A stretch of DNA of 47,997 bases. Origin: Geminocystis sp. M7585_C2015_104. Its GTDB lineage: Bacteria; Cyanobacteriota; Cyanobacteriia; Cyanobacteriales; Cyanobacteriaceae. The position numbers were made by a program, and so were the translations under genes. The notes under the pieces were generated by a model, which had not been told where the DNA came from, searched no databases, and worked only from the letters and a program-made list of their open reading frames with translations. Below, one piece after another: positions 2,713 through 47,834 of the stretch; the first letter of the stretch is position 1, and every line of letters starts with the position of its first letter. The stretch covers positions 1 through 47,997 of the forward strand of contig DVEF01000020.1 in NCBI GenBank assembly GCA_015295805.1, given 5' to 3'.

Positions 2713-3339
2713 ATGCCGCCAGTTATGATTAAATTTGTACTCGCTTCCGCCTCCCCCGCCAGGAAAAAGCTGCTGGAAACCGTGGGAATTAACCCTATTG
2801 TCACCCCCAGTGGCTATGACGAATCCTCCGTTACCCTTTCTAAACCCTATGATTTAGCCGCCACCCTGGCAGAAAGAAAGGCGACTGTTGTGGCCCAACT
2901 CTATAAAGACGCCCTAGTATTGGGGTGTGACTCCCTGTTGGAAGTGGAAGGACAAATATATGGTAAACCCGCCGACGCTAAAGAGGCTATTTCCCGTTGG
3001 CAACTGATGCGTGGCAAAAAAGGCCTACTCTACACTGGTCATGCTTTGATAGATACTACTAGGCAGAGGAAAATTGTCCGTTGTGCTGTAACTGAGGTGT
3101 ACTTCTCCTTTGTTACAGACTCAGAAATTGAAGCCTATGTGGCTACAGGTGAACCACTCAGGTGTGCCGGCTGTTTCGCCTTGGAGGGAAAAGGGGGATT
3201 GTTTATAGACAGAATTGTGGGGTGTCACAGCAATGTTATTGGCTTGAGTCTACCCCTCCTACGCACTATGTTGGCAGACTTGGGTTACACCGTCTTAGAC
3301 TTTTGGGGTGAAAAATCTGTTAATTCTAAGGTAAACTAA
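2713..3339 (+). CDS. maf: Maf family nucleoside triphosphate pyrophosphatase
   Basis: House-cleaning pyrophosphatase that hydrolyses non-canonical nucleotides. The N-terminal [16 protein letters not shown] motif, the LAERKA block, the [17 protein letters not shown] segment with the catalytic Asp, and the [16 protein letters not shown] block are all characteristic. Length is about 208 residues. I chose the ATG at 2713, ten bases after the CyanoP stop, because TAGGG precedes it; an ATG at 2725 would also fit ([10 protein letters not shown]). Probably co-transcribed with CyanoP and nadK. Confidence 0.93.
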
Positions 3340-3365
3340 TTGGCGTCGTCACCCAGAGATTTTTT

Positions 3366-3671
3366 ATGAACACCCTGGAAGAAGTTAAGGCTAAAATCAG
3401 AGAGGGTAAAATTGATGAAGCCAAGGCTATAGCTTTTGCCTCCCTTCTCAGAATCGAAATCGAAACCTCTTGCGATGCTGATGCTAAATCCTCCTCCTGT
3501 CACAGTGTTATTGACATTTTAGAAAACGAAATTGAACACCATCTGGGAGATGAATCTCTTACTGAACTGCACTTTAAAGAAGTAGAAAAAGCCCAACAAT
3601 ATCTGATTAAAAATAGCAAGACTTTTCGAGATTTACTATTAATAATCGAGGAAAGTAATCAGGATTTTTAG
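3366..3671 (+). CDS. Hypothetical protein, short member of a paralogous pair
   Basis: 101 residues, mostly predicted helix, no signal peptide or membrane segment. I do not recognise the family. It begins 26 bases after maf on the same strand. Its first 30 residues follow the pattern EExxxxxREGKxxEAxxxAxAxxLxxxIxT, shared with the next gene, and a second block ending in KNxxTxxxLLxI also aligns, so the two are homologous along their first 100 residues. The two Cys residues are not in a metal-binding spacing. Function unknown. Confidence 0.7.
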   Translation: MNTLEEVKAKIREGKIDEAKAIAFASLLRIEIETSCDADAKSSSCHSVIDILENEIEHHLGDESLTELHFKEVEKAQQYLIKNSKTFRDLLLIIEESNQDF

Positions 3672-3721
3672 GTGGTTTGAAAAAAGGGTTTTATGTCTGC
3701 TCTGAATGAGGGAGAAAAAAC

Positions 3722-4510
3722 ATGAGCTGTCATGAAGAATTTAGAGAATTACTGAGGGAGGGCAAAAACAGAGAGGCACTCCTTCTGGCATTGGCTAACA
3801 GCCTGGAATTGAAGATTAAAACCATCTCAAAAAAAGCGCAACTGCGTTGGGAAACAAGAATAAATTTACTAAAAGGGATAACCAATATAATAAATAGAAC
3901 AGAAGCCCTTACAAATCTAACAAAACCAGAGGAAATACAGCTTACACAATTTCACGAATGTCAAAGAAAACAAGCATATGAAATATGGCAAAAGAATAGA
4001 GAAACCCTGATAAAAGTATTTCAAATAATGACGGGCAGAGACACAGAAGATATAGAAATTGAAACAGAAAGCCATGAGGGGGAAGAAGAAGAAAAGCAGG
4101 CTTGGATTGACAGTATAACAGATAACATCCTAGGAGAGGAAACAGAAGAAGAAGAAAAGTTGTTGGCTAAAGGGGAGAAAATTACCCATCATAACGGTGT
4201 GTGTAGAGATTCTAGTATCCCCGCCTCACAATTACAAGGAGAATTAGAGGCAGAAGAAGAGGAAATGATGATAGAGGCGGCAGCGGCATTGGAATTGGCA
4301 ATGGCATCGGCAGGAGAAGAAGAGGAAAAGGAAAAAGGAGAAGTAAAAATGGAAATAGGAGAGGAATGGGAAGAGTGGCTAAAAGAAGATGAAGATGAGG
4401 ATTCCTCCTGCCAACAACTAGAGGGAATTAACTGGAGTGAAGAAGACTGGAGTGAGGGAGAGGAGGGAGAGGGAGAAGAAGGAGAAATTGGAAGTAACAG
4501 CAAAAGTTAA
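3722..4510 (+). CDS. Hypothetical protein: paralogue of the upstream gene with a long acidic tail
   Basis: 262 residues. Residues 1-105 are homologous to the preceding protein (both carry REGKxxEA followed by LxxxIxT). From about residue 106 to the end the protein is dominated by Glu and Asp, with runs of three to four Glu, a short Ala-rich helix (about 180-190) and a Ser/Gly/Glu tail. The tail is probably disordered and strongly negative. The coding strand is correspondingly almost pure purine over 4311-4500, which suggests expansion of GAA/GAG repeats. No known domain is recognised. A basic partner such as a nucleic-acid-binding or ribosomal protein is a guess only. Confidence 0.7.
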   Translation: MSCHEEFRELLREGKNREALLLALANSLELKIKTISKKAQLRWETRINLLKGITNIINRTEALTNLTKPEEIQLTQFHECQRKQAYEIWQKNRETLIKVFQIMTGRDTEDIEIETESHEGEEEEKQAWIDSITDNILGEETEEEEKLLAKGEKITHHNGVCRDSSIPASQLQGELEAEEEEMMIEAAAALELAMASAGEEEEKEKGEVKMEIGEEWEEWLKEDEDEDSSCQQLEGINWSEEDWSEGEEGEGEEGEIGSNSKS

Positions 4511-4775: not shown

Positions 4776-6701
4776 ATGGGAGAATTATGGACTATTGAAG
4801 ACAGCAAAAAATTGTATCAGATTGAAGGCTGGGGTCATCCTTATTTTGATATAAATGAGGAAGGAAACGTCACAGTGGCGCCTCGAGGTGACGGCTACAA
4901 AATCGACCTATTCCACCTAGTAGAAAGTCTCAAAAAAAGAGATATTCATCTTCCCTTACTCATTCGCTTTTCTGACATTTTAGCTGATCGTCTCCACCGA
5001 CTCCACCAATGCATGTACAATGCCATTGAGCGTTATGGCTATCAAAATGTTTACAGAGGTGTTTATCCCATAAAATGTAATCAGCACCGCCAACTAGTAG
5101 AAGCATTAGTCAAATATGGCAAACAGTACCATTTTGGCCTAGAAGTTGGCTCTAAGCCGGAGTTAATGATTGCTTTGGCCACTTTAGATGTAGATAAAAC
5201 CGGCGAAACATTGTTGATTTGTAATGGGTACAAGGATGAAGATTATCTAGAAACTGCCCTTTTGGCTCAACAACTTGGCCACAATTTAATAGTAGTAATT
5301 GAGCAGGTAAACGAGTTATTTACTATACTAAAACTAAGCGATAAATATGACCTAAAACCTCAGCTAGGCGTCAGGGCAAAACTGCAAACAAAAGGCACCG
5401 GCCATTGGGGCAATTCCACGGGAGAGAGAGCAAAATTTGGGCTTACTATACCCGAGATTGTAATGGTGGTAGAACACTTACGTGAGCAGAATAAATTAGA
5501 CTGTTTGAAACTACTACATTTTCATATTGGCTCCCAAATATCCTCCATTGCAGTAATTAAAGACGCTATTCGGGAGGCAAGTCAAATTTATGTGCAATTA
5601 TACAATATGGGTGCCGGGATGAAATACCTGGACGTTGGCGGCGGTTTGGCAGTAGATTATGATGGCTCAAAAACCAACTTTTATGCCTCTAAAAACTACA
5701 ATATGCAAAATTATGCCAACGACATTGTAGCGGCAGTTAGAGATGCCTGTGATGCCAAAAATGTGCCCCATCCCATCCTAATTAGTGAAAGCGGAAGGGC
5801 AATCGCCGCCCACCATTCTGTCTTGATTTTTAATGTGGTAAACAGCAATAACCCTCTGTTAAATATCCCTATTTCCAAACCAGAAAAAGCCCATCCAGTT
5901 CTGCGTAATCTATGGGAAACCTATCACACTATTGACGATACCAACTATCAGGAAATGTACCACGATGCCATCCAGTTTAAGGAAGAGGCAATCAGTCTAT
6001 TTAATTTTGGCTATCTCACATTAGCTGAAAGGGCACAGGCTGAACAATTATACTGGGCTTGCTGTCAAAAAATATATCTAATTACTCAGAATGAGAGCTA
6101 TGTTAGTGATGATTTAAACGAACTGCAAGAATTGATGACTTCCACCTACTACATCAATTTGTCCGTATTCCAGTCCGCCCCCGATACCTGGGCGATAGAT
6201 CAACTTTTCCCAATTCTCCCCATTCACCGCCTCAACGAAAAACCGACTGTTAAGGCAATTTTAGCTGATTTAACCTGTGATAGCGATGGCAAAATTGACA
6301 AATTCATTGACTTGTTAGACGTAAAACACGCCCTAGAATTGCACCCCCTAGAATTAAATGGCCGAAACCCCGAGGAAAGACAGTTTAAACCCTATTATTT
6401 GGGAATGTTTTTAGTAGGAGCCTATCAAGAAATCCTGGGCAATTTGCACAACCTTTTCGGGGATATAAATGTAGTCCACATTGAGATTAATGGGGACAAT
6501 TATAACATTAAACACGTCGTAAAAGGCGACACAGTAACAGATGTTCTCAGATATGTAGAATACTCCCCTGAAGATTTGATGGAAAAAATGCGTTGTCTTG
6601 CAGAAATGGCCATAAATGAAAGACAAATTGAAATCGAACATTCTCAACGCCTGTTGAAAAATTATGAGCGAAACTTGCGTAGTTATACTTATCTGAGATA
6701 A
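4776..6701 (+). CDS. speA: Biosynthetic arginine decarboxylase
   Basis: PLP enzyme that converts arginine to agmatine, the first step of polyamine synthesis. 641 residues, the usual length of bacterial SpeA. The PLP lysine lies in VYPIKCNQHRQLVEAL (about residue 100); HFHIGSQIS, LDVGGGLAVDYDGS and LISESGRAI are the substrate/PLP-binding blocks of the alanine-racemase-fold family. The start ATG at 4776 has AGGAAGAA immediately upstream. It is separated from upstream genes by an intrinsic terminator, so it probably has its own control. Confidence 0.96.
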   Translation: MGELWTIEDSKKLYQIEGWGHPYFDINEEGNVTVAPRGDGYKIDLFHLVESLKKRDIHLPLLIRFSDILADRLHRLHQCMYNAIERYGYQNVYRGVYPIKCNQHRQLVEALVKYGKQYHFGLEVGSKPELMIALATLDVDKTGETLLICNGYKDEDYLETALLAQQLGHNLIVVIEQVNELFTILKLSDKYDLKPQLGVRAKLQTKGTGHWGNSTGERAKFGLTIPEIVMVVEHLREQNKLDCLKLLHFHIGSQISSIAVIKDAIREASQIYVQLYNMGAGMKYLDVGGGLAVDYDGSKTNFYASKNYNMQNYANDIVAAVRDACDAKNVPHPILISESGRAIAAHHSVLIFNVVNSNNPLLNIPISKPEKAHPVLRNLWETYHTIDDTNYQEMYHDAIQFKEEAISLFNFGYLTLAERAQAEQLYWACCQKIYLITQNESYVSDDLNELQELMTSTYYINLSVFQSAPDTWAIDQLFPILPIHRLNEKPTVKAILADLTCDSDGKIDKFIDLLDVKHALELHPLELNGRNPEERQFKPYYLGMFLVGAYQEILGNLHNLFGDINVVHIEINGDNYNIKHVVKGDTVTDVLRYVEYSPEDLMEKMRCLAEMAINERQIEIEHSQRLLKNYERNLRSYTYLR

Positions 6702-6709
6702 ACTAACCC

Positions 6710-6763
6710 GGGGAGGAGAAAATGGACTACCATATACGGGATAACGGCATCACTCTCCTCCCC
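6710..6763 (+). promoter_or_regulatory. Hairpin sequestering a Shine-Dalgarno site between speA and the M16 gene
   Basis: GGGGAGGAG at 6710-6718 is an excellent ribosome binding site, and its perfect 9-base complement CTCCTCCCC lies at 6755-6763. The loop of 36 bases contains the start codon of a short upstream ORF. Formation of the stem would hide the site. The complementarity is read directly; the regulatory role is an inference. Confidence 0.4.
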
Positions 6764-6793
6764 CTAGGCAAGTATTATGAAAGTGGCAAATAA
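6722..6793 (+). CDS. Candidate 23-residue upstream ORF overlapping the M16 gene start
   Basis: ATG at 6722, three bases after GGGGAGGAG (6710-6718), opens a frame of 23 codons (MDYHIRDNGITLLPLGKYYE then SGK) stopping at 6791-6793. It overlaps the first 17 bases of the M16 gene in another frame. Its ribosome site is better than that of the M16 gene itself, so translational coupling or a leader peptide is possible. It could also be fortuitous. Confidence 0.3.
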   Translation: MDYHIRDNGITLLPLGKYYESGK

Positions 6794-8237
6794 AGACAAG
6801 AAAAAACAGTGGTGTTGGTTAACTATAATCGCCCTCTTGGTTATAGTTGTATTTCTGGGTAATCAGGCAAAGGCAGATGTAACACCAGGATATAAGAAAT
6901 TAAAATACCCGCCGCTGGCACCCATTACCATACCTAGTTATGAACGTTATCAGTTGGACAACGGCATGGTAGTATATCTGATGGAGGATCATAGTTTGCC
7001 CTTGATAAGTGGTACTGTGTTGCTAAAAATGGGTTCAATATTTGATCCTCCTTCTCAGGTGGGGTTAGCAGAATTAACTGGAGAATTGTTGCGTTTGGGA
7101 GGTACAGTCCACTACTCTCCTGAACAGTTAAATGCTATTCTGGAACAGAAGGCGGCATCTATAGAAACCAGTGTCACCCGCACATCGGCCAGTATTAGTT
7201 TTTCCAGCCTCAGTTATGATATAGATACCGTATTGCCCATCTTTGCAGAAATTCTCCAATCCCCCCGCTTTGACAGTCAACAGTTGGAATTGTTAAAAAC
7301 CCAAGTCCGTGGTACAATCTCCCGTCGCAACGATTATCCCGGGGATATTGCCAGAAGAGAGTTTGCCAAGTTAATATACGGCCAAGATAGCCCCTATGCC
7401 AGGGTGATAGAATATGTACATCTAGACAACATCCAAAGGGAAGACATACAAAGATTTTATCGCCAATATGTACGTCCGGAGGCAATGATTTTGGGGATGG
7501 TGGGGGATTTCGACTCAGCCAAGATGAAGCAACTAATCCAACGGCTTTTTGCCTCCTGGCATACGGACTCCACCATGACGCCGGATTATACCATCAGTGA
7601 GCCCCAACAAGCAACCACAGAAGGCGTGTTTATTGTCAATAGGCCACAGTTAACTCAGAGTCATATTATACTAGGGCATATAGGAGTAAAACTAGGGGAT
7701 GCCAACTATCCCGTTTTGAGTGTCATCAATGGGGTGTTAAACGGCTTTGGGGGGAGACTGTTTAAAGAAATTCGTAGCAGACAGGGTTTAGCCTATTCTG
7801 TCTTTGGCAGCTGGCAGGCTAACTATGACTATCCCGGAGTGTTTATAGCCGGAGGACAAACAAAAAGCGAGACCACCACTCAGTTTATAAGGAGCATTAT
7901 AGAAGAAATCCAACGACTTTGCAACTCCCCTATTACAGACACAGAATTGGACTATGCTAAGGATTCTATCCTCAACTCCTTTGTCTTCCAATTCCAACAT
8001 CCCTCTCAAACCCTTTCCCGCCTGATGACATACGAATACTATGGCTATCCCCAGGATTTTATTTTCCAATACCAACAGGGTGTGAAGAATACCAGCCGAG
8101 AGGATGTTTTGAGAGTAGCGCAAAAATATTTCCAGCCAGATAAGATTGTAACCCTCATAGTAGGCAATGAAAATGCCATCAAAGCCGACTTAATAACCCT
8201 CGGCAAAAATATTCAGGAGATAAACATTACCAACTAG
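6777..8237 (+). CDS. M16-family peptidase-like protein lacking the zinc motif, secreted or membrane-anchored
   Basis: 486 residues. Residues 1-33 form a basic start, a hydrophobic stretch and an AKA cleavage-like site, so it is exported or anchored. The rest has the two-lobed pitrilysin/M16 layout: an N-terminal lobe beginning RYQLDNGMVVYLMEDHSLPL, and a C-terminal lobe containing RLFKEIRSRQGLAYSVFGSW, the typical substrate-binding RxxxGLAY region. The place of the HxxEH zinc motif is taken by LAELTGELLRLGGT, so the protein should be catalytically dead. Cyanobacteria often encode an active and an inactive M16 subunit side by side; here no active partner follows. Confidence 0.88.
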   Translation: MKVANKDKKKQWCWLTIIALLVIVVFLGNQAKADVTPGYKKLKYPPLAPITIPSYERYQLDNGMVVYLMEDHSLPLISGTVLLKMGSIFDPPSQVGLAELTGELLRLGGTVHYSPEQLNAILEQKAASIETSVTRTSASISFSSLSYDIDTVLPIFAEILQSPRFDSQQLELLKTQVRGTISRRNDYPGDIARREFAKLIYGQDSPYARVIEYVHLDNIQREDIQRFYRQYVRPEAMILGMVGDFDSAKMKQLIQRLFASWHTDSTMTPDYTISEPQQATTEGVFIVNRPQLTQSHIILGHIGVKLGDANYPVLSVINGVLNGFGGRLFKEIRSRQGLAYSVFGSWQANYDYPGVFIAGGQTKSETTTQFIRSIIEEIQRLCNSPITDTELDYAKDSILNSFVFQFQHPSQTLSRLMTYEYYGYPQDFIFQYQQGVKNTSREDVLRVAQKYFQPDKIVTLIVGNENAIKADLITLGKNIQEINITN

Positions 8238-16253: not shown

Positions 16254-16877
16254 ATGACTGTTGTGGCTATCGTCGACTACGACATGGGAAATTTACACTC
16301 AGTGGCTAAGGGGATAGAAAAAGCTGGTGCAACTCCCCTCATCACCCATTCCCCAAAAGATATTACCGCCGCTGATGCTGTTATTCTCCCGGGTGTGGGT
16401 TCTTTCGACCCCGCTATGCTACACTTACAAGAGAGGGATTTAATTCCACCCATCCTGGACTTTGTCAAAAGTGGCAAACCCTTTCTGGGTATTTGTCTGG
16501 GAATGCAAATACTCTTTGACTCCTCCGAAGAGGGGAAGGAAAGGGGTTTGGGCATCATTCCAGGCACTGTCAAACGTTTTCAATCTGAGCCGGGTTTAAC
16601 TATTCCCCACATGGGGTGGAATACAATAGAACTGACACAGTCTCACCATCCTCTTTGGCATAATCTCCCCTCTTCTTTCTATGTCTATTTTGTCCATTCC
16701 TACTTTGTCTTTCCACTAAACCCCCAGGTTGTGGCCGCTCGTGTTACCCATGGCACACAGACTGTAACCGCCGCCATTGCCCATGAAAACATAATGGCAG
16801 TGCAATTTCACCCGGAAAAATCTGCCGATTTAGGCTTACAAATTCTCGGAAATTTTGTAAAATTGGCAGGTAAATAG
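16254..16877 (+). CDS. hisH: Imidazole glycerol phosphate synthase, glutaminase subunit HisH
   Basis: 207 residues. Supplies ammonia from glutamine to HisF in histidine synthesis. The class I glutaminase triad is visible: Cys81 in FLGICLGMQILFDSS, His186 and Glu188 in VQFHPEKS. The N-terminus VAIVDYDMGNLHSVAKGIEK and the oxyanion segment PGVGSF are typical. The partner hisF is not in the window, as is common in cyanobacteria. Confidence 0.96.
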   Translation: MTVVAIVDYDMGNLHSVAKGIEKAGATPLITHSPKDITAADAVILPGVGSFDPAMLHLQERDLIPPILDFVKSGKPFLGICLGMQILFDSSEEGKERGLGIIPGTVKRFQSEPGLTIPHMGWNTIELTQSHHPLWHNLPSSFYVYFVHSYFVFPLNPQVVAARVTHGTQTVTAAIAHENIMAVQFHPEKSADLGLQILGNFVKLAGK

Positions 16878-16881
16878 TGCT

Positions 16882-17328
16882 ATGAAGTCACTTCACATCC
16901 TTCCCCTTGTTTTCCTCCTACTATCTTGGGGAAGTTTTAAAGCCTCTTCTCAGACTACAAGGGATATCTTGTACTATAAGAGGCTGCTACAACAAGTAGA
17001 TAATATATGCCAATCCCTCACTGTTTCTTCTCTTAGGGAAAACTGCAACAATTTACTAAAAAGTAGCATTTTCTTTGATCCAGATGCCATATATCTTTGT
17101 GGGAAAAAATTTCGCCCCCACTCCACCAATATCCTGGAGTGTTTAAGTGCTATCAGAGATAGAGTATATGTACAATCAGAAATCAGAAAATGCGACAGGA
17201 TGATAACCTCCCCTCAGACTATAGAATGTCTGCAAAAGGGGGGAAGAGAGGTGGTATATGGTGGTTGTCCGCTGCTGGAGGAGAGTAAGAATTTGCCGGG
17301 GAAAAAACAGGCAACTACTAAATACTAA
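16882..17328 (+). CDS. Hypothetical secreted Cys-rich protein
   Basis: 148 residues with a clear signal peptide (about 1-23, hydrophobic LHILPLVFLLLSW, then a small-residue site near KASSQ). The mature part has seven or more Cys (for example NICQS, RENCNNL, YLCGKK, LECLS, RKCDR, IECLQ, GGCPL), suggesting disulfides in the periplasm or lumen. No domain recognised. It begins four bases after hisH, so it is probably translated from the same mRNA. Its last 11 bases overlap the convergent next gene. Confidence 0.6.
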   Translation: MKSLHILPLVFLLLSWGSFKASSQTTRDILYYKRLLQQVDNICQSLTVSSLRENCNNLLKSSIFFDPDAIYLCGKKFRPHSTNILECLSAIRDRVYVQSEIRKCDRMITSPQTIECLQKGGREVVYGGCPLLEESKNLPGKKQATTKY

Positions 17329-19237
17329 AAAAACCAGAGGGATTTACAGAAAACAAATTACGTCTTTTTAGGCCTTCCTTGTGTAAAATAGCATTAGCCG
17401 CTAGCAAACCACTACTTACTGCCCTCTCCATTAAACCACAAGGGAAAGGCATTTTAACCCAATCGCCGGCAAACACCAAATTGGCAATTTGAGTTTCAGT
17501 TTCTGGCCTATTTTTGTAACTATTAGGGGGATAACCAGAAAAATTTTTTTGATTTACCAACTGTTGATGGAGAATTTTAGCACCTGCCAACTCCGGTACA
17601 ATTTCTATCAACTCCTGTTTAAAAGTATTTAGCAAATCCGTTTGCGTGGGGAAATCCTTCTCTTTGTAACAATAGGCATGTAATTCCACCACACTGCCAC
17701 CAGTTTTTTCCGCCCACTCCTTATACTCTCTTTGAATACGATGATAAAGAGTGATACTGTCCGTTAAACGATAACCAGAAAGAGAGGTAAAATTACTATG
17801 GGGCCAGTAGAAATCCCTGTCTAACCAAAAACGGGCAACGGCAAAGGGGTCAGCTAATGCTAAACTCTCTACTTGGGAAAGAGTATCCGGATAACTCTCC
17901 CTATCCCCCTCTATTAAACGGAAGAGATGTTTAACCCCCCTCACATCAGTGGCAATTACATAATAGTCGGCAGTGAGGGTTTCTGGCATGGCAGGGGTGG
18001 CGTCAGTGGCCACTAATTTCACTCTCCCCTCTTCCCTCTCCACTACCCTATATTTGGCAAGATTTCTCTTGGCAGGAGGTAGTTTTACTTCCCCCTTCTG
18101 ATTATACACCGCCCCATGACAGGGACATATAAAACTTCCATCCTCCTGTCTACTAACTACACATCCTTGGTGGGTGCAACTGAGAGACAATGCTAAATCA
18201 TTGTCCTTAGCTACAGCAAAAAGCTGGTCGCCAGCGCCATAATAGTCATAATAGTCATCCCTAAGGTAAGGGTTTGAGTCTACCCAGAAGGGCACATTGC
18301 CAATTCCCTGACCCCCTCTATAAAATTGTAGAGAGGTGATTCTGCCATTCTCACAAACAATCCTACTGATATGAGCCTCCGTGATAATCTTACCCCCATT
18401 GTGGAGGATAGATTGGGCAATGGGAGTCACTAAACTTCTACCCATATCGTCTACAGTACCATTAAAGGCCAAACCTTCGGGATTGCCGAAGAAATAGAAA
18501 TGGAAAAATTGCATTAATTCCCCCGCACTCAACAAATCTGGCGCGTTTAGGGTGGACTTACCAAAAGGCAAAAAATATAAGTCAAACAACCCCTGAGGGA
18601 TATTAGTGGCCCACTGGGTGACGGAAATATGATCTAAACTGTTATAGGTGTCTGGGATCTTAAAACTAGTAATAGCACGAAAAACGCCCCAATGCCCTGG
18701 ATTGGTCAAGTCTATGCCCCAACTAAGGAAATTGGGGGAGGAAATGGCTAAATCCACAACATTCCAGGGAAAACTAGAATGGGAGGGGCGGAACACTTCT
18801 GGTTTGTATTTGTTATCCTTGAACAAAAGGGAGTAAAAGTTGAGAGATTGGAAATTCTTTTCAATGGCAATTTCCCTCACAATACTCCAAAGATTATAAT
18901 ACTGGGGGAAAAAACCATGAAAACCATGTTCCATAGTAAATTTCTCCTCCCCCACCTGGATTTGCCAACTAGCAATTTTCCCCCCCAACTGAGGTGACTT
19001 TTCTAACAGTATAACCTCAAACCCCCTGTTGCCTAATTCATAGGCACAGGCTAAACCCGCTAAACCGCCGCCTATCACCACCACTCTTTTCGGCTGGCTT
19101 ACACGAGTGGGTAACTGGAGATTATCCCATACATGAATTGTCGGTTTTGGCTTTGCCACCCGAGAATAACCTACTGCCCCTAGAATGCTTGCAATAGCTG
19201 ATAATTTTAGTAAACTCCTACGGGATATCTTTTCCAT
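17318..19237 (-). CDS. cruE: CruE/CrtU-like carotenoid desaturase/methyltransferase with inserted Rieske domain
   Basis: 639 residues. Residues 5-24 form a Tat-like signal (SRRSLLKL then a hydrophobic stretch). Residues 51-61 carry the FAD Rossmann motif VVVIGGGLAGL, followed by the phytoene-desaturase-type LGGKIASWQ and MEHGFHGFFPQYYN blocks. A Rieske domain is inserted at about 350-395: Cys354/His356 (CTHQGC) and Cys371/His374 (CPCHG) would bind 2Fe-2S, and Cys359/Cys373 would form the disulfide typical of high-potential Rieske proteins. The C-terminal VFAGDWVKMPFPCGLMERAV is the FAD-binding closing motif. CruE/CrtU enzymes turn beta-carotene rings into aromatic ones. I infer CruE from this architecture; another flavoprotein desaturase is possible. 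Confidence 0.65.
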   Translation of the reverse strand: MEKISRRSLLKLSAIASILGAVGYSRVAKPKPTIHVWDNLQLPTRVSQPKRVVVIGGGLAGLACAYELGNRGFEVILLEKSPQLGGKIASWQIQVGEEKFTMEHGFHGFFPQYYNLWSIVREIAIEKNFQSLNFYSLLFKDNKYKPEVFRPSHSSFPWNVVDLAISSPNFLSWGIDLTNPGHWGVFRAITSFKIPDTYNSLDHISVTQWATNIPQGLFDLYFLPFGKSTLNAPDLLSAGELMQFFHFYFFGNPEGLAFNGTVDDMGRSLVTPIAQSILHNGGKIITEAHISRIVCENGRITSLQFYRGGQGIGNVPFWVDSNPYLRDDYYDYYGAGDQLFAVAKDNDLALSLSCTHQGCVVSRQEDGSFICPCHGAVYNQKGEVKLPPAKRNLAKYRVVEREEGRVKLVATDATPAMPETLTADYYVIATDVRGVKHLFRLIEGDRESYPDTLSQVESLALADPFAVARFWLDRDFYWPHSNFTSLSGYRLTDSITLYHRIQREYKEWAEKTGGSVVELHAYCYKEKDFPTQTDLLNTFKQELIEIVPELAGAKILHQQLVNQKNFSGYPPNSYKNRPETETQIANLVFAGDWVKMPFPCGLMERAVSSGLLAANAILHKEGLKRRNLFSVNPSGFFSI

Positions 19238-19264
19238 GAGACTATATGCCTACAATGATTGCTA

Positions 19265-19483
19265 TTATCCTTCAATCGACTTAATATTATTTAACAAAAC
19301 ATCCCCTCTGTCACCCGGCTTCTCCTTTCCTACTTCTATTTTCCTCTTTACATTATTCTTTCCCGCTGCACCTCTCCCTTTGATAATTTTTCTCAATAAA
19401 AAAATTACCAGCACAAGCACCTTGACAGTACCTCCGCCTGTCGCCAACACCCCCTCATAGCACGGAGAAGAGGCGACTGTCAA
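19265..19483 (-). CDS. Candidate small membrane protein coupled to larE
   Basis: A TTG at 19483-19481 overlaps the larE stop as TTGA and opens a 72-codon frame. It has one hydrophobic helix (VKVLVLVIFLLRKIIKGR) followed by a basic tail rich in Lys. A shorter GTG start further in would also work. The overlap geometry suits translational coupling, but there is no known homologue in mind and no independent support, so it may be chance. Confidence 0.25.
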   Translation of the reverse strand: MTVASSPCYEGVLATGGGTVKVLVLVIFLLRKIIKGRGAAGKNNVKRKIEVGKEKPGDRGDVLLNNIKSIEG

Positions 19484-20295
19484 GGGTGGGAAGGTAACTG
19501 TCGGTTAAGTTTACCGCTGCGATAACCCTCTAAATCCAAGGTGACATACTTAAAACCAAGGCTTTGATAGTAGCTGACTAATTCTTGGAGGTTGCAGTTG
19601 CAGATAAACCTTTGAATGTCTTGTGGCATTAATTCAATTCTGGCAGTGTCGCCATCATGTCTTACCCGTAGGTTTTTATATCCCAACTTGCGGAGATAGA
19701 TTTCCGCCCTGCCAACACGATATAATTTCTCTGGGGTGATTTCCTCGCCATAGGGAAAACGGGAAGACAAACAGGGTTGTGAAGGCTTATCCCACCACGG
19801 CAATCCTAAAAGTTTGGAGATTTCCCTTACTTCTATTTTACTAATCCCCACTTCTGCTAGAGGCGAACGCACCCCCCTCTCCCTGGCAGCCTGAATACCT
19901 GGACGATAATCCTGTAAATCGTCCACATTAACACCATCAATTATATAGGGATAACCCCTCTGTTGGGCAATAATTTTTAGTTTGTCATGCAATTCGCTTT
20001 TACAAAAATAACAACGGTTGACAGGATTGGCAGTATAATTGGGATTGTTCATCTCCTCTGTTTCAATCAATTCATGTTTGATTCCTATCCAATCAGCCTG
20101 TTGTTGTGCCTCATCTAACTCTTCTGGTAGTAGGGAGGGGGATACCCCAGTGATGGCCAATGCCTTGTCACCCAACACATCATAGGCTACCTTAGCCACT
20201 AGACTACTGTCTACCCCCCCCGAATAGGCTATCAACGCCTTTTCCATCTGTTGAAAGATGGCAGTCAAGGCAGTCAGTTTCTCTTGGATACTCAT
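19480..20295 (-). CDS. larE: ATP-dependent sacrificial sulfur transferase LarE
   Basis: 271 residues. PP-loop ATP pyrophosphatase: AYSGGVDSSLVAKVAYDVLG near the N-terminus. NRCYFCKSELHDKL and the PSQPCLSSRFPYGEE loop are LarE signatures; the Cys in QPCLSSR corresponds to the sacrificial sulfur donor of the Lactobacillus enzyme. LarE helps build the nickel-pincer cofactor of lactate racemase-type enzymes. LarB/LarC and LarA are not in this window, so the partner enzyme is unknown. It starts 17 bases after the RND pump gene with a GGTGGAG ribosome site, so the two share a transcript. Confidence 0.88.
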   Translation of the reverse strand: MSIQEKLTALTAIFQQMEKALIAYSGGVDSSLVAKVAYDVLGDKALAITGVSPSLLPEELDEAQQQADWIGIKHELIETEEMNNPNYTANPVNRCYFCKSELHDKLKIIAQQRGYPYIIDGVNVDDLQDYRPGIQAARERGVRSPLAEVGISKIEVREISKLLGLPWWDKPSQPCLSSRFPYGEEITPEKLYRVGRAEIYLRKLGYKNLRVRHDGDTARIELMPQDIQRFICNCNLQELVSYYQSLGFKYVTLDLEGYRSGKLNRQLPSHP

Positions 20296-34408: not shown

Positions 34409-35884
34409 ATGATGTTGGGGGTAGACAAGAAGGGAGAAGAGTTTTACAGTCTAGAAGACTGGAGAAAGGGATACCAGTCACAAACAAAAGAGGAAGAGTA
34501 TTGGATAGAAGAAGTAGAAGGGGAGATACCTCGGGAGCTGTGTGGTACATTATATCGCAATGGACCTGGCCTGTTAGAGGTATTTGGCACCCCCCTGAAA
34601 CATCCTTTTGATGGGGATGGCATGGTTTGTGCCTTTAGCTTCAAGGATGGCAGGTGTTTTTTCCGCAATAGATTTGTCAAAACCGAGGGCTTTTTAGAGG
34701 AACAAAAGGCGGGTAGAATGCTTTACCGTGGGGTGTTTGGCAGTCAGAAACCCGGGGGGTGGCTGGCTAATATTTTTGATATTCGCCTTAAAAACATAGC
34801 CAATACAAACGTAATTTACTGGGGAGGTAAACTGTTAGCCCTATGGGAGGCAGACCATCCCTACAGTCTCCATCCGGAAACTTTGGACACCATCGGCCCT
34901 ACTGACTTAGATGGCATTTTAGCACCAGGGGAGGTATTTTCGGCACATCCTCGTATAGACTCTCATTCTCCCTTTAATGGGGGTAAGCCGTCACTGGTGA
35001 ATTTTGGCGTCAAGACGGGATTATCTAGTACTATAACCGTCTATGAGTTAGATGAAAAAGGAGGGTTAATCCAAAAGTATAGTCATATTATCCCTGGTTT
35101 CTCCTTCATTCACGATTTTGTCATCACCCCCGACTATTGCATCTTCTTCCAAAACCCCACCAGTTATAATCCCCTTCCCTTCTTGTTAGGATTAAAGGGT
35201 GCGGGGGAATGTGTTAAATTCCTCAAGGGTAAACCCACTAATATTATCCTTATTCCCCGACGTCCACCCCACAAAGATGTTATCAAAATAGAGACAGAGG
35301 CGGGGTTTATTTTCCATCATGCCAATGCCTTCCAGATGAGCGAAAAGGAGATTATAGTAGACTCCATCTGTTATGAACAGTTAGCACAAATTGACCCCAA
35401 TAGCAGCTTTAGGGATGTAGACTTTGATAAACTGGCACCAGGACAGTTATGGCGGTTTAGACTAGATTTAGTAGCCAGGAAAGCCACCAGGGAGTTAATA
35501 AACGCCCGCTGTGTGGAATTTCCATCCCTTCATCCGGGTAGGGTAGGACACAAATACCGTTACCTGTTCATCGGTGCTAGTCATCATCCTACCAGAAATG
35601 CACCCCTACAGGCCCTTCTAAAACTGGACTTAGAAACGGGCAGTCAACAACTCTATTCCTTTGCTCCAAAAGGCTTTGCTGGCGAGCCCATCTTCGTTCC
35701 TAGGGCTCATAATATCACCGATGGGGAGGATGACGGTTGGGTTCTCCAGTTAGTTTACAATTCTTTACATCATCGCTCCCAGTTAGTGATTTTTGATGGC
35801 AAAAACATCTCCTCCCCGGTGGCCATTTTGCACCTTAAAAGACACATACCCTATGGACTTCATGGCCATTGGAAACAGGATTAG
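34409..35884 (+). CDS. Apocarotenoid/carotenoid cleavage oxygenase (RPE65 family)
   Basis: 491 residues. Seven-bladed propeller dioxygenase with four iron-binding His: in SAHPRID, FIHDFVI, FHHANAF and LHGHWKQD. NGPGLLEVFGTPLKHPFDGDGM is the conserved N-terminal block. Length and His spacing match Synechocystis apocarotenoid 15,15'-oxygenase, which cleaves C27-C30 apocarotenals to retinal. The residues do not settle whether the true substrate is a full carotenoid or an apocarotenoid. Confidence 0.9.
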   Translation: MMLGVDKKGEEFYSLEDWRKGYQSQTKEEEYWIEEVEGEIPRELCGTLYRNGPGLLEVFGTPLKHPFDGDGMVCAFSFKDGRCFFRNRFVKTEGFLEEQKAGRMLYRGVFGSQKPGGWLANIFDIRLKNIANTNVIYWGGKLLALWEADHPYSLHPETLDTIGPTDLDGILAPGEVFSAHPRIDSHSPFNGGKPSLVNFGVKTGLSSTITVYELDEKGGLIQKYSHIIPGFSFIHDFVITPDYCIFFQNPTSYNPLPFLLGLKGAGECVKFLKGKPTNIILIPRRPPHKDVIKIETEAGFIFHHANAFQMSEKEIIVDSICYEQLAQIDPNSSFRDVDFDKLAPGQLWRFRLDLVARKATRELINARCVEFPSLHPGRVGHKYRYLFIGASHHPTRNAPLQALLKLDLETGSQQLYSFAPKGFAGEPIFVPRAHNITDGEDDGWVLQLVYNSLHHRSQLVIFDGKNISSPVAILHLKRHIPYGLHGHWKQD

Positions 35885-39977: not shown

Positions 39978-40982
39978 TTAGTTGGCTGATGTGATTTTAC
40001 CCCGAAAAACAAAGTAGTTGTAGATGTTATAAAACAACATTATTGGTATTAAAAACCCAATAAATATTAACATGAAAACAAGAGAACTGGGGGAGGCTGC
40101 AGCCTCATAAATGGTGATGCTGGGAGGAATTATGTAAGGGAATACTACCAGTGCCAACCCAATGAAAGTCAACAGGAAGAGCAATATTGTCAAAACGAAG
40201 GGAGTTACCTCCCTCTTCTCGTTTAAACTCTTCAGTAGTAAAACAATCAAGGTGACACCAAGAAGAGGAATAAGGGCAAAAATGTAAACAAAAGGAGGGT
40301 CAAATAACCGATTTCTGGCAAAATCGGAAAATATTGGTATAACCGCAGTGATAATAATCGCACCCATCAAGGTGGTAACCGCCGCAATCTTTGCCGTCTT
40401 GTAATGGGTCTCTTGTAGTTTGCCTGTAGTTTTCATTATTAGATAACAGGACCCAATTAAAACATAGCCCTGAATCAAGGTTAATGCCACAATAAAACTG
40501 CGCCAATTGAGCCAATCCCAGCTGCTGCCGATAAAATGACCATTGGCATCTACGCGGATACCCTCAATAACCCCAGCCAAGGCAAAACCTTGTCCCAATG
40601 CGGCGACAAAGCTGCCTATCCCAAATGCCCAATTCCAGAATAACTTACGACGAGAATTCTGTCTAAACTCGAAAGAAACTGTGCGTAAGATTAACCCCAC
40701 CACCATTATCATGATGGGGATATATAGGGCATTGAGAATGGTACTATAAGCCAGGGGAAATGCACCAAACAAACTACCACCCATCAGAATCAACCATGTG
40801 GCATTGGCATCCCATACATTGCTCAAACTCGTCATTAGTATAGTGCGTCTCTCCTCCGAAGAGGCAGTAAGGGAAAGAATCCCTACCCCCAAATCAAACC
40901 CATCCAGCATTACATACAAGAACAGGAATAATGCTAGAATAAAAAACCATACAATCGGTAGCAAGTAATTCAGGGTTTCCAT
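39978..40982 (-). CDS. cydB: Cytochrome bd quinol oxidase subunit II
   Basis: 334 residues, about eight to nine TM helices. FLYVMLDGFDLGVGIL is the conserved first-helix motif, and WDANATWLILMGGSLFGAFP the second-helix one. It pairs with CydA in the membrane and begins 16 bases after the cydA stop. The enzyme reduces oxygen with plastoquinol. Confidence 0.95.
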   Translation of the reverse strand: METLNYLLPIVWFFILALFLFLYVMLDGFDLGVGILSLTASSEERRTILMTSLSNVWDANATWLILMGGSLFGAFPLAYSTILNALYIPIMIMVVGLILRTVSFEFRQNSRRKLFWNWAFGIGSFVAALGQGFALAGVIEGIRVDANGHFIGSSWDWLNWRSFIVALTLIQGYVLIGSCYLIMKTTGKLQETHYKTAKIAAVTTLMGAIIITAVIPIFSDFARNRLFDPPFVYIFALIPLLGVTLIVLLLKSLNEKREVTPFVLTILLFLLTFIGLALVVFPYIIPPSITIYEAAASPSSLVFMLIFIGFLIPIMLFYNIYNYFVFRGKITSAN

Positions 40983-40998
40983 AGACTTCCACCATCTC

Positions 40999-42429
40999 TT
41001 ACACCAAGGGGCGACTATCAGGAATGTGTTGAGCGGGCGTTACTTCCACGGGGGTTATTTTTTCTCCAGGTAAGGGCAAGTTAAAATCTGGTCCTTTGGC
41101 TATAATACGACTACCGAAAAACAAGGCTGAGAAGAATAAAACCGTATAGAGTAACAAGAATACCGTAAGAGAGGCCAACACATTTTCCGGTGGCAAATGG
41201 GAAACCGCGTCAGCTGTTCGTAACTCGCCGTATACTGTCCACGGCTGTCTCCCCACACAACGCACAATCCAACCGGCTTCCACTGCCACATACCCCAAGG
41301 GCGCCGCCCAAATCCAAGACCACAACAACCATTTTTGTTTGCTAATATACTCAGGAGACAGTTTCCCCCTTAGCCATTGAATTACACTCACCAGCATTAT
41401 CCCCACAAAGATAAAGCCAATGAGACTCATAACCCTAAAGGAGTAGTAAATCAAACCAATCATGTGAGGGCGATTTTTCTCATCCCATTCCTTCAACCCC
41501 AACACAGGCCTATCTAAACGAGGTTTCATTTCTAACAAATATGCCAATCCGTTAGGAATTTTTATCTCCCAGTCGTTTCTTTCTGCCTTCTCATTGGGAA
41601 TAGCCAACAAACTCCAGTCTGCCTTTTCCCCCGCCGGTATTGTTTCCCATAGGGCCTCCATGGCCGCCAATTTTGTAGGCTGATGGTAGTACACCTGTTC
41701 AGCACTCAAGTGCCCTACATATATCTGTAAGGGGGTAATGGCTATAGCTACAGCCAGGACAATTTTAAAAGACTTGGCAAAAAACTCAGTATGACATTGT
41801 TTAAGAATGTACCAGGCACTAATGCCACCAATCACAAACAGGGAGGTTTCTAGGGTAGCCAGAAACATGTGGGATACGCTTTTTACCATGAAAGGATTAA
41901 AAATGGCGGCAAAATAATCCCTAACCACAAATTTCCCTTCCACAAAATCCCCCCCTGCCGGTGTTTGCAACCAAGAATTGGCCGTCAGAATCCAGAAGGT
42001 AGACAGATTGGCTCCTATAGCTACACATATAGTTGATATGTAGTGTATAACAGGATGAACCCGTTGCCAGCCGAATATCATTATTCCCAAAAAGCCGGCT
42101 TCCAACATGAATGCCATGGTAGCCTCAAATCCCATGATGCTACCAAAGAAATCCCCCACTGCCTCAGAAAAGGGAGCCCAATTTGTGCCGAATTGGAATG
42201 CCATTGGCGCACCAGATGCTACTCCAATCCCGAAATTGAGCACATACAGCTTCGACCAAAAACGGGCATGATAGTAATAATCGGGGTTTTTTGTTTTTAG
42301 CCATAACCCCTCTACGATTACTAGATAAATAGCCATGCCCGTGGTTAAGACAGGCCACAACATGTGAAATATGGCAGTTACGGCAAACTGTATTCGGGAA
42401 AGGGGGAGGGTATCTGATAAAAGCTCCAT
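40999..42429 (-). CDS. cydA: Cytochrome bd quinol oxidase subunit I
   Basis: 476 residues. SRIQFAVTAIFHMLWPVLTT contains the first heme His; EATMAFMLEAGFLGIMIFGW has the proton-path Glu pair; GWIVRCVGRQPWTVYG is the signature GRQPW motif. The Q-loop between helices 6 and 7 (from about QVYYHQPTKLAAMEALWETI) is short, as in cyanide-insensitive types, rather than the long E. coli form. Plastoquinol is oxidised and oxygen reduced to water without proton pumping, in the plasma or thylakoid membrane. Confidence 0.96.
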   Translation of the reverse strand: MELLSDTLPLSRIQFAVTAIFHMLWPVLTTGMAIYLVIVEGLWLKTKNPDYYYHARFWSKLYVLNFGIGVASGAPMAFQFGTNWAPFSEAVGDFFGSIMGFEATMAFMLEAGFLGIMIFGWQRVHPVIHYISTICVAIGANLSTFWILTANSWLQTPAGGDFVEGKFVVRDYFAAIFNPFMVKSVSHMFLATLETSLFVIGGISAWYILKQCHTEFFAKSFKIVLAVAIAITPLQIYVGHLSAEQVYYHQPTKLAAMEALWETIPAGEKADWSLLAIPNEKAERNDWEIKIPNGLAYLLEMKPRLDRPVLGLKEWDEKNRPHMIGLIYYSFRVMSLIGFIFVGIMLVSVIQWLRGKLSPEYISKQKWLLWSWIWAAPLGYVAVEAGWIVRCVGRQPWTVYGELRTADAVSHLPPENVLASLTVFLLLYTVLFFSALFFGSRIIAKGPDFNLPLPGEKITPVEVTPAQHIPDSRPLV

Positions 42430-46787: not shown

Positions 46788-47834
46788 ATGAGACAGTGGG
46801 AGACAAAAACAAATATTCGTACTTGTGGTATAAATCCCAATCACTGGTATGTGGTAGCTTTAGCGGAGGAAGTAAAAGATAAACCAGTAGCAGTAACACT
46901 CTGGCATGAGGACATAGTACTATTTCGTGACTCCAAGGGGAAGATAAGGGCGTTAGAGAATAGGTGTCCCCATCGTCGGGTAAAATTGAGTGAGGGGGCA
47001 GTAGTGGGAGACGAAATAGAATGCGCCTATCACGGTTGGCGTTTTAACCCAGAGGGAAAATGCAGTCTTGTGCCTTACCTGGCAGAAAATCAGAAGATGC
47101 CCAGCTGTACCCTCAAATCTTATCCCGTGGAGGAGTTAGACGGCTTTGTTTGGCTATTTCCTGGCAGTGGCGACGCCCAAAAAAACATCAAACCTATGGG
47201 GATACCGGAATGGGAGCATCTAAACTATATAGCCAGTTTAGCAGTAATAGACTGTCCTGGCCATTTTTCCTTTTTGATTGAAAACCTAATGGACATGTAT
47301 CACGGCCATTTACACAAAGATTATCAGGCTTGGGCTAACCCGCGGCTAAAGGAGATAAAAACCAGTGTGGGAAGGGTAGATGCCATATACGAAGCCGACA
47401 GTTATTACCGCATCGACAAGATTTGGTCGATTTCCCAACTGTTTCTTCCCTCTCTTCGCCGTCTCCATCCAGAAACACTACGCGTCAGTTACATCTACCC
47501 CCATTGGAGTGCTAGCCTAGGGGAGGACTTTAAAATCTACTGCCTATTTTGTCCCATTAATGAAACCCGCACCAAGGCCTACCTAGTTCATTTCACCTCA
47601 TTACAGGCCTTTAAACGGCTACACAGACTCCCCGTCTGGTTCCGTCGCCTTGTCAAAAATAGCCTCTTCAACAGTGCTAAGGGGTTGCTGGAGGGCTTAG
47701 TAAGACAGGACCTGAGGATGATAAGACAAGAACAGGAGGCGTTTGACCAAAACCCGTCCGAGAGAAACTATGAACTGAATCCCGCCATTGGCAAGGTACA
47801 GGAGTTGCTTCTGGCACAGGCCAAGGGGCAATAA
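46788..47834 (+). CDS. cruH: Rieske non-heme iron oxygenase, CruH-like candidate
   Basis: 348 residues. The N-terminal Rieske domain has CPHRR then CAYHGWRF, the oxygenase-type ligand set (Cys-His, Cys-His). The catalytic iron site is in DCPGHFSFLIENLMDMYHGHLH, with the N/D-x2-H-x4-H pattern. In cyanobacteria CruH oxidises the C18 methyl groups of aromatic carotenoid rings (renierapurpurin) to give synechoxanthin. I assign it because a CruE-like gene is also in the window and the length fits. Other cyanobacterial Rieske oxygenases (for example chlorophyll-metabolism enzymes) are alternatives. Divergent from cobN. Confidence 0.55.
   Translation: MRQWETKTNIRTCGINPNHWYVVALAEEVKDKPVAVTLWHEDIVLFRDSKGKIRALENRCPHRRVKLSEGAVVGDEIECAYHGWRFNPEGKCSLVPYLAENQKMPSCTLKSYPVEELDGFVWLFPGSGDAQKNIKPMGIPEWEHLNYIASLAVIDCPGHFSFLIENLMDMYHGHLHKDYQAWANPRLKEIKTSVGRVDAIYEADSYYRIDKIWSISQLFLPSLRRLHPETLRVSYIYPHWSASLGEDFKIYCLFCPINETRTKAYLVHFTSLQAFKRLHRLPVWFRRLVKNSLFNSAKGLLEGLVRQDLRMIRQEQEAFDQNPSERNYELNPAIGKVQELLLAQAKGQ

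Follow-up and report, generated by a model that had tools for sequence, protein, structure and literature searches.

On which side of the membrane does a carotenoid-aromatizing enzyme act when it carries a Rieske iron-sulfur cluster of its own, and where do its electrons go? This question is raised by a gene on a 47,997-nucleotide stretch of DNA from the cyanobacterium Geminocystis sp. M7585_C2015_104 (contig DVEF01000020.1), the whole of which is referred to here as the window. The gene at 17318-19237 is assigned to the CruE/Sll0254 family, and its predicted product is the carotene desaturase/methyltransferase that forms χ-rings on the way to synechoxanthin. CruE makes precursors of renierapurpurane and okenane, aromatic carotenoid biomarkers taken as evidence of ancient phototrophs, and from its membrane side and its electron carrier one could tell whether light and redox state influence the reaction. 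The reading favored in this study, held with a little more belief than doubt, is that of an ordinary CruE at the lumenal face, from which FADH2 electrons would leave by way of a Rieske cluster of middling potential and reach a carrier in the lumen. Feature coordinates are collected in Table 1, and published work is cited from the accessible excerpts of each article.

The gene forms a single open frame with an ATG start, the plus strand of the same interval carries many stops in the frame translated, and its 3' end overlaps a small plus-strand open reading frame (ORF; 16882-17328) tail to tail by 11 bases. In the product, the Pfam domain Amino_oxidase (1.8e-32) is split in two stretches with a Rieske domain between the pieces (PF00355, residues 337-396, 2.9e-09, 37.1 bits with the cut-off at 20.3), and the bounds of the whole insert were set by alignment with two actinobacterial CrtU proteins. 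An AlphaFold2 model (alignment of 42 sequences; pLDDT 82.4, pTM 0.85) has a core matching rice phytoene desaturase (5mog_E; Z 33.9, 446 residues, rmsd 2.9), a protein that, unlike CruE, has no Rieske domain. VIA-align of the whole model bore chiefly on the flavoprotein core; for the Rieske part, modelled and searched by itself (pLDDT 90.5), the best fold matches were b6f-type Rieske proteins, with PetC3 at rank 16. The protein stays below the curated cut-offs for HpnE (TIGR03467, 136.7 vs 283.05) and for phytoene desaturase (TIGR02731, 97.5 vs 569.4). The product has the architecture that defines the CruE/Sll0254 family, a bc-type Rieske domain set into a CrtP-like FAD core, and is not an uninterrupted flavoprotein of ~520 residues as in actinobacterial CrtU. 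A previous interpretation from the letters alone, termed here the sequence-only reading, had called the product a CruE-like flavoprotein, and the two domains and the phytoene-desaturase fold bear this out, with the family assigned by architecture. A free-standing Rieske protein was rejected on account of the flavoprotein core, and a fusion artefact because 133 homologous rows share the same architecture.

These rows are the distinct sequences from 148 loci, one of them from Thiodictyon; four actinobacterial loci were excluded by score. A scan of genome contigs gave 273 relatives, the best 80 of which are all cyanobacterial with 60-91% identity, and cruE occurs in 114 of the 289 genomes of a class-wide sample and in 55 of the 291 genomes of a phylum-wide sample, which overlaps the former and includes many genomes outside the class (make-up seen on 39); p-values from these samples take no account of kinship among the genomes. 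Plasmid searches returned proteins of cyanobacteria, Thiodictyon, and actinobacteria, one search also giving free-standing Rieske proteins; no relative was found in the viral contigs searched. When Thiodictyon CrtU was the query, the listed matches were confined to genomes of the genus, family, and order of the window. The name cruE was given because of the architecture, the annotation of a cyanobacterial homologue with 62% identity ('putative phytoene dehydrogenase Rieske iron-sulfur component'), and a named relative from Synechocystis (S. salina, 65% identity, N-terminus lost at a contig end). Sll0254 of PCC 6803 and A1248 of PCC 7002, the latter of which we take to be cruE, belong to the same family by architecture, and Graham and Bryant (2008) is said to be a founding paper for CruE. 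In one published table sll0254 is paired with A1248 and named crtU, beta-carotene desaturase (PMC7880944), and CruE has been placed in the synechoxanthin pathway (PMC6878006). The gene described here is new to a known family, whose domain fusion can already be found annotated in public entries. The excerpts covered by a literature search, with the founding papers and supplements outside its scope, mention neither a twin-arginine translocation (Tat) signal nor a cluster potential for CruE or CrtU, and no absence from the literature is claimed.

The cluster of the insert reads C354-T-H356-Q-G-C359 ... C371-P-C373-H374, with C359 and C373 as the disulfide-type cysteines. The sequence-only reading had numbered this pair exactly so and assigned it to the bc type rather than the oxygenase type; an oxygenase-type insert was rejected here as well, its motif being wrong. 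Residues C354, H356, C359, C371, and H374 are invariant in 133/133 rows, and C373 is kept in 132 (Ser in L003); because of such conservation across homologous rows, neither this motif nor the twin arginine described below is a product of chance. The label 'high-potential' given by the same reading had to be dropped. The second-sphere pair is Ala376/Tyr378 instead of the Ser and Tyr of CPCHGSxY in bc1/b6f proteins, and over the 133 rows this pair is Ala+Phe in 76, Ala+Tyr in 48, Ser+Phe in five, Thr+Tyr in four, and Ser+Tyr in none, so that 124 rows have Ala where bc1/b6f proteins carry the potential-raising Ser. The PetC encoded in this genome retains Ser and Tyr (CPCHGSQY). By sequence, the solved structure nearest to the insert is 5cxm (PetC3 of Synechocystis, 2.6e-18), in which Ala and Phe likewise replace Ser and Tyr (CPCHGAEF); unlike the insert, PetC3 and the b6f Rieske proteins are free-standing, outside any flavoenzyme. 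The potential of PetC3 is presumably near +135 mV. The high potential of bc-type Rieske proteins rests largely on the Ser and Tyr hydrogen-bonded to the cluster region, and for yeast a cost of about 130 mV for loss of the Ser and about 65 mV for loss of the Tyr is quoted (PMC12954380). Arsenite oxidase Rieske clusters reach +130/160 mV with Thr/Phe and +225 mV with Ser/Phe, and the Rieske subunit of NT-26 arsenite oxidase bears a Tat leader (PMC3758308). Given these arsenite oxidase values, and because no row combines Ser with Tyr, the CruE cluster is expected from its sequence to have a potential of roughly +100 to +200 mV, mid rather than high.

The potential of the plastoquinone pool lies near the same range. 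This closeness, together with the likeness of the insert to b6f-type Rieske proteins, would suit a lumenal cluster that exchanges electrons with the quinone pool or cytochrome b6f and not with a soluble carrier. Such an exchange appears quite unlikely to us; the window does encode subunits I and II of a cytochrome bd oxidase (CydAB, 39978-42429), but nothing ties them to cruE.

The membrane side is addressed by the N-terminus (MEKISRRSLLKLSAIASILGAVGYSR), in which the SRRSLLKL stretch described previously is present, the gene now being placed on the minus strand. The twin arginine R6-R7 occurs in 131/131 distinct rows that have an N-terminus (rows lacking it were omitted, namely, L140 with a broken frame and L144/L053 with a contig-end cut), and Lys never stands in for Arg, so that the suggested check for homologues without it found none. 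S5 is kept in 128 and K11 in 122 of these rows. An uncharged, Gly/Ala-rich helix follows, and then a near-invariant G-Y-S-R-F-x-K-P-x-P segment; basic R26 and K29 past the helix occur in 131/132 rows each, with Thiodictyon as the exception. PMC7317946 describes the Tat consensus SRRxFLK, an h-region rich in glycine, and a basic residue for Sec avoidance, and the CruE N-terminus agrees with all three. A TATFIND-like rule of our own was passed by 129/131 CruE rows and by 39/512 neighbouring ORFs, a contrast that is only rough because starts were chosen differently (nearest ATG before RR vs longest ATG); two of the 39 background passes are CruE rows that escaped the filter, and many of the printed ones are an RRRR membrane protein. 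The signal-peptidase motif AxA is absent from the Geminocystis protein; it is found after residue 22 in only 4/131 rows, Thiodictyon included, and anywhere within residues 15-45 in 36/131, mostly within the h-region. As the Tat signal of most Rieske proteins stays uncleaved and serves as an anchor according to a review (PMC7317946), and as AxA is missing here and rare in the rows, an uncleaved N-terminal anchor is expected. TatA and TatC are both encoded in the genome.

The same stretch might instead be an amphipathic membrane helix that holds CruE on the cytoplasmic face, where plastoquinone would reoxidise FADH2 and the Rieske cluster would serve as a side branch or a structural element. Plant phytoene desaturase, to which the CruE core is closest, uses plastoquinone, and the lack of a conserved AxA motif past residue 22 would also agree with this arrangement. 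It is nevertheless unlikely in view of the strict conservation of both arginines over 131 rows, and in view of CrtP and CrtQ of the same genome, which are also membrane-acting desaturases and start directly with the Rossmann segment, having no such N-terminus. Nor does a disulfide pair kept in all but one row, around ligands that never vary, resemble a vestigial cluster. Published labelling of A1248 argues in the same direction, as this protein is among those enriched with PsbU-APEX2 in the lumen (its value is 5.88) and has the entry 'None' under 'Identified in GFP-APEX2 samples?', the cytoplasmic control, in a table where PetC has 5.96 and 'One' (PMC7880944). Synechocystis CruE and CruH have been located in the thylakoid membrane (PMC6878006). 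With the Tat motif, TatA and TatC in the genome, and the lumenal labelling of the PCC 7002 protein taken together, the lumen (or periplasm) is the likely place of action of CruE, in agreement with what the sequence-only reading had hinted at.

That reading had also considered the architecture unusual, whereas it is the norm of the family, being shared by all rows including the CrtU of a purple sulfur bacterium. Candidatus Thiodictyon syntrophicum CrtU resembles CruE in having a Rieske insert at the same site, the bc-type cysteine pair, CPCHGA.Y, and a twin-arginine N-terminus (MKRRIFLRNVGLATLAGTAVGAAGLAAI, i.e., MKRRIFLRN and then a hydrophobic stretch); it differs in its 36% identity, in lacking R26/K29, and in having AxA. 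Its gene was identified by position, adjoining crtY in the photosynthesis cluster, and CrtU is reported as the key χ-ring enzyme of okenone synthesis in this organism (PMC5944118). The CrtU proteins of Streptomyces and Kitasatospora share the flavoprotein core (the two aligned show 28 and 30% identity), but in 4/4 actinobacterial loci examined, which represent four of 14 plasmid records, the insert is absent and inspection showed no Tat-like N-terminus. The caveat that the insert might be common to all CrtU proteins therefore holds only for the CruE branch and fails for the actinobacterial loci. CrtU of S. griseus is a φ-ring enzyme (PMC10604819). Beside crtU, all four actinobacterial loci encode a DUF5914 protein whose Rieske motif is of the oxygenase type (CPHLGA...C.WH), and a separate Rieske protein thus stands next to a CrtU that has none; in the Kitasatospora fiedleri locus L118 the crtU-like match (2962-4427) is in two pieces in different frames, with no gene listed. 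Side and carrier might explain how the actinobacterial enzymes manage with no built-in Rieske domain.

The Thiodictyon protein also bears on whether the cluster could feed electrons in, toward an O2-dependent ring chemistry with a dioxygenase-like role. The old name CrtL-diox (PMC4470828, PMC10253290) is all that speaks for this, and we regard it as very unlikely: the 14 Pfam families that match CruE at E <= 0.001 include no mononuclear-iron oxygenase domain, the insert is of the bc/b6f type and not of the oxygenase type, and the same architecture makes the χ-ring in a purple sulfur bacterium. The last point is a weak one, because the strain comes from oxic/sulfidic interfaces and grows also under 5% O2 (PMC5944118).

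Returning to an export route toward a lumenal carrier, we infer the five steps that follow as well as the role and side of the partner protein introduced below, whereas the domains, the conservation, the Tat motif, and the gene partnership are read from sequence. I) FAD and the [2Fe-2S] cluster would be loaded in the cytoplasm; II) folded CruE would be carried by Tat and, tethered by its uncleaved N-terminal helix, would remain on the lumenal face of the thylakoid membrane (or the periplasmic face of the plasma membrane); III) the phytoene-desaturase-like core would draw a β-carotene ring from the membrane and carry out two desaturations with methyl migration; IV) FADH2 would pass its electrons singly to the built-in mid-potential Rieske cluster; and V) the cluster would in turn reduce cytochrome c6 or plastocyanin as the soluble carrier in the lumen. 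Ring aromatization might thereby drain into photosystem I or an oxidase. As there are two desaturations per ring (PMC10604819), four electrons per ring would be released. The route from FADH2 via the Rieske cluster to a one-electron carrier in the lumen is proposed as the simplest working of this anatomy, with a putative acceptor.

Several points weigh against this reading. The names given in print disagree: Mohamed and Vermaas (2006), reportedly another founding paper, is said to have named the protein lycopene cyclase/dioxygenase. The accessible text of PMC4470828 states with regard to this name that no evidence was found for direct β-carotene formation, and that of PMC7885315 uses 'carotenoid phi-ring synthase'. 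Potentials read from sequence are uncertain, since Kustd1480 keeps +335 mV without the Tyr (PMC12954380) and F128Y in AioB is without effect (PMC3758308). In the four rows with AxA past the helix, including that of Thiodictyon, cleavage is possible. Stable anchoring is also uncertain, since the uncharged stretch is short (14 residues) and, although the model has a helix at residues 6-24, residues 20-27 are poorly predicted (pLDDT under 50). Proximity labelling gives false positives, and among the proteins in the table of PMC7880944 are some that earlier work had assigned to other membranes or compartments. CruE and CruH went undetected in the quantitative proteome of PMC9958174, as far as its excerpt goes.

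For the next pathway step, a second gene in the window offers a concrete candidate through its near-perfect co-occurrence with cruE. This partner encodes an oxygenase-type Rieske protein and lies 27,551 bases from cruE on the opposite strand. Clustering of the neighbours of 79 cruE loci placed an oxygenase-type Rieske gene on the same strand in 16, as the next downstream ORF in 13. At E <= 1e-90, a threshold at which fragments such as that of G272 (see below) would be missed, 112 genomes of the class sample have both genes, two have cruE only (G609, G670), none has the partner only, and 175 have neither. Both genes lie less than 5 kb apart in 60 of the 112 genomes, with the partner downstream on the same strand in 60/60, at a distance of 15-3,080 bases that does not exceed 1,027 in 58 cases. 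In the phylum sample, close partner orthologues (>=52% identity over nearly the whole length) are present in exactly the 55 genomes with cruE.

The partnership has its exceptions. Some partner homologue at E <= 1e-50 is found in 63/291 genomes of the phylum sample, eight of which have no cruE; their homologues are weaker or partial, seven with 32-37% identity. One genome, G272, carries a partner fragment (G272:C14, 17575-18000) that covers residues 26-169 with 57% identity within a frame of 174 codons. This genome lacks cruE, its matches at E <= 1e-5 being confined to distant relatives of parts of CruE; the fragment is possibly a relic of a lost pathway. Conversely, G609 and G670 have cruE, and their only partner matches at E <= 1e-5 show 37 and 36%, and 31 and 40% identity, respectively, which are partner absences or assembly gaps.

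Synechoxanthin is a dicarboxylic acid that arises by oxidation of ring methyl groups, a step assigned to CruH. The best curated relative of the partner is 4β-methylsterol monooxygenase, an enzyme that oxidises a methyl group, with a score (189.8 bits) far below the cut-off of 600. Because of the co-occurrence with cruE and this weak tie to a methyl-oxidising monooxygenase, we propose that the partner is cruH, with ring-methyl oxidation as its predicted function; it may be the CruH already known. It would act after CruE and from the cytoplasmic side, since no N-terminal signal was found in the protein by inspection. More broadly, and with doubt outweighing belief, it may be suggested that in cyanobacteria and purple sulfur bacteria ring aromatization is lumenal or periplasmic, carried out by a Tat-exported, self-sufficient flavo-Rieske enzyme with electrons going to soluble photosynthetic carriers, that methyl oxidation by the proposed CruH proceeds from the cytoplasmic face, and that a symmetric product would then need turnover of the carotenoid across the membrane.

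Table 1. Positions of cruE, its parts, the proposed partner gene in the window, and DUF5914 genes at actinobacterial loci (L numbers)
Feature	Position	Strand	Basis
cruE, 639-aa FAD flavoprotein with phytoene-desaturase fold and inserted Rieske domain	17318..19237	-	ORF, Pfam, fold search
Putative Tat-type signal or anchor, residues 1-26 (SRRSLLK, 14 uncharged residues, then a basic residue)	19160..19237	-	alignment, model
Twin arginine codons, R6-R7	19217..19222	-	invariant, 131/131 rows
FAD-binding Rossmann segment (VVVIGGGLAGL), residues 51-94	18956..19087	-	PF13450, PF01266, PF00890
Inserted Rieske domain, residues about 311-410	18008..18307	-	PF00355, alignment with actinobacterial CrtU, domain model
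[2Fe-2S] motif CTHQGC...CPCHGAVY, residues 354-378, C359/C373 pair, Ala376 replacing Ser	18104..18178	-	alignment
Proposed cruH, oxygenase-type Rieske protein, 348 aa, CPHR...CAYHGW	46788..47834	+	Pfam Rieske 2.8e-26, co-occurrence
DUF5914 gene, L115	7432-8448		beside crtU
DUF5914 gene, L116	about 6480-7436		beside crtU
DUF5914 gene, L118	4506-5471		beside crtU
DUF5914 gene, L119	4419-5432		beside crtU

Some further observations concern cruE loci and their surroundings. Between cruE and the proposed cruH, the window encodes an RPE65-type carotenoid oxygenase of 491 residues (34409-35884), and on a plasmid of Calothrix NIES-4105 cruE (L117, 3917-5869) adjoins a carotenoid oxygenase. Near cruE, an apparent ABC-type permease and an ATPase occur at 37/79 and 31/79 loci; the permease is on the strand opposite to cruE in 37/37 copies and the ATPase in 28/32. 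Two cruE copies are held by G615:C1 (24289-26175 and 3356320-3358215, with 58% and 52% identity to the query), the first adjoined by the partner gene. A promoter scan of 16800-19600 gave 10 promoter-like sites compared with 5.2 expected in shuffles and was not used as evidence. In four genomes (G033, G042, G632, G652) the matches are split just ahead of the Rieske core (cruE residues about 326-331), which suggests an extra loop of ~30 residues or more before this core in some lineages.

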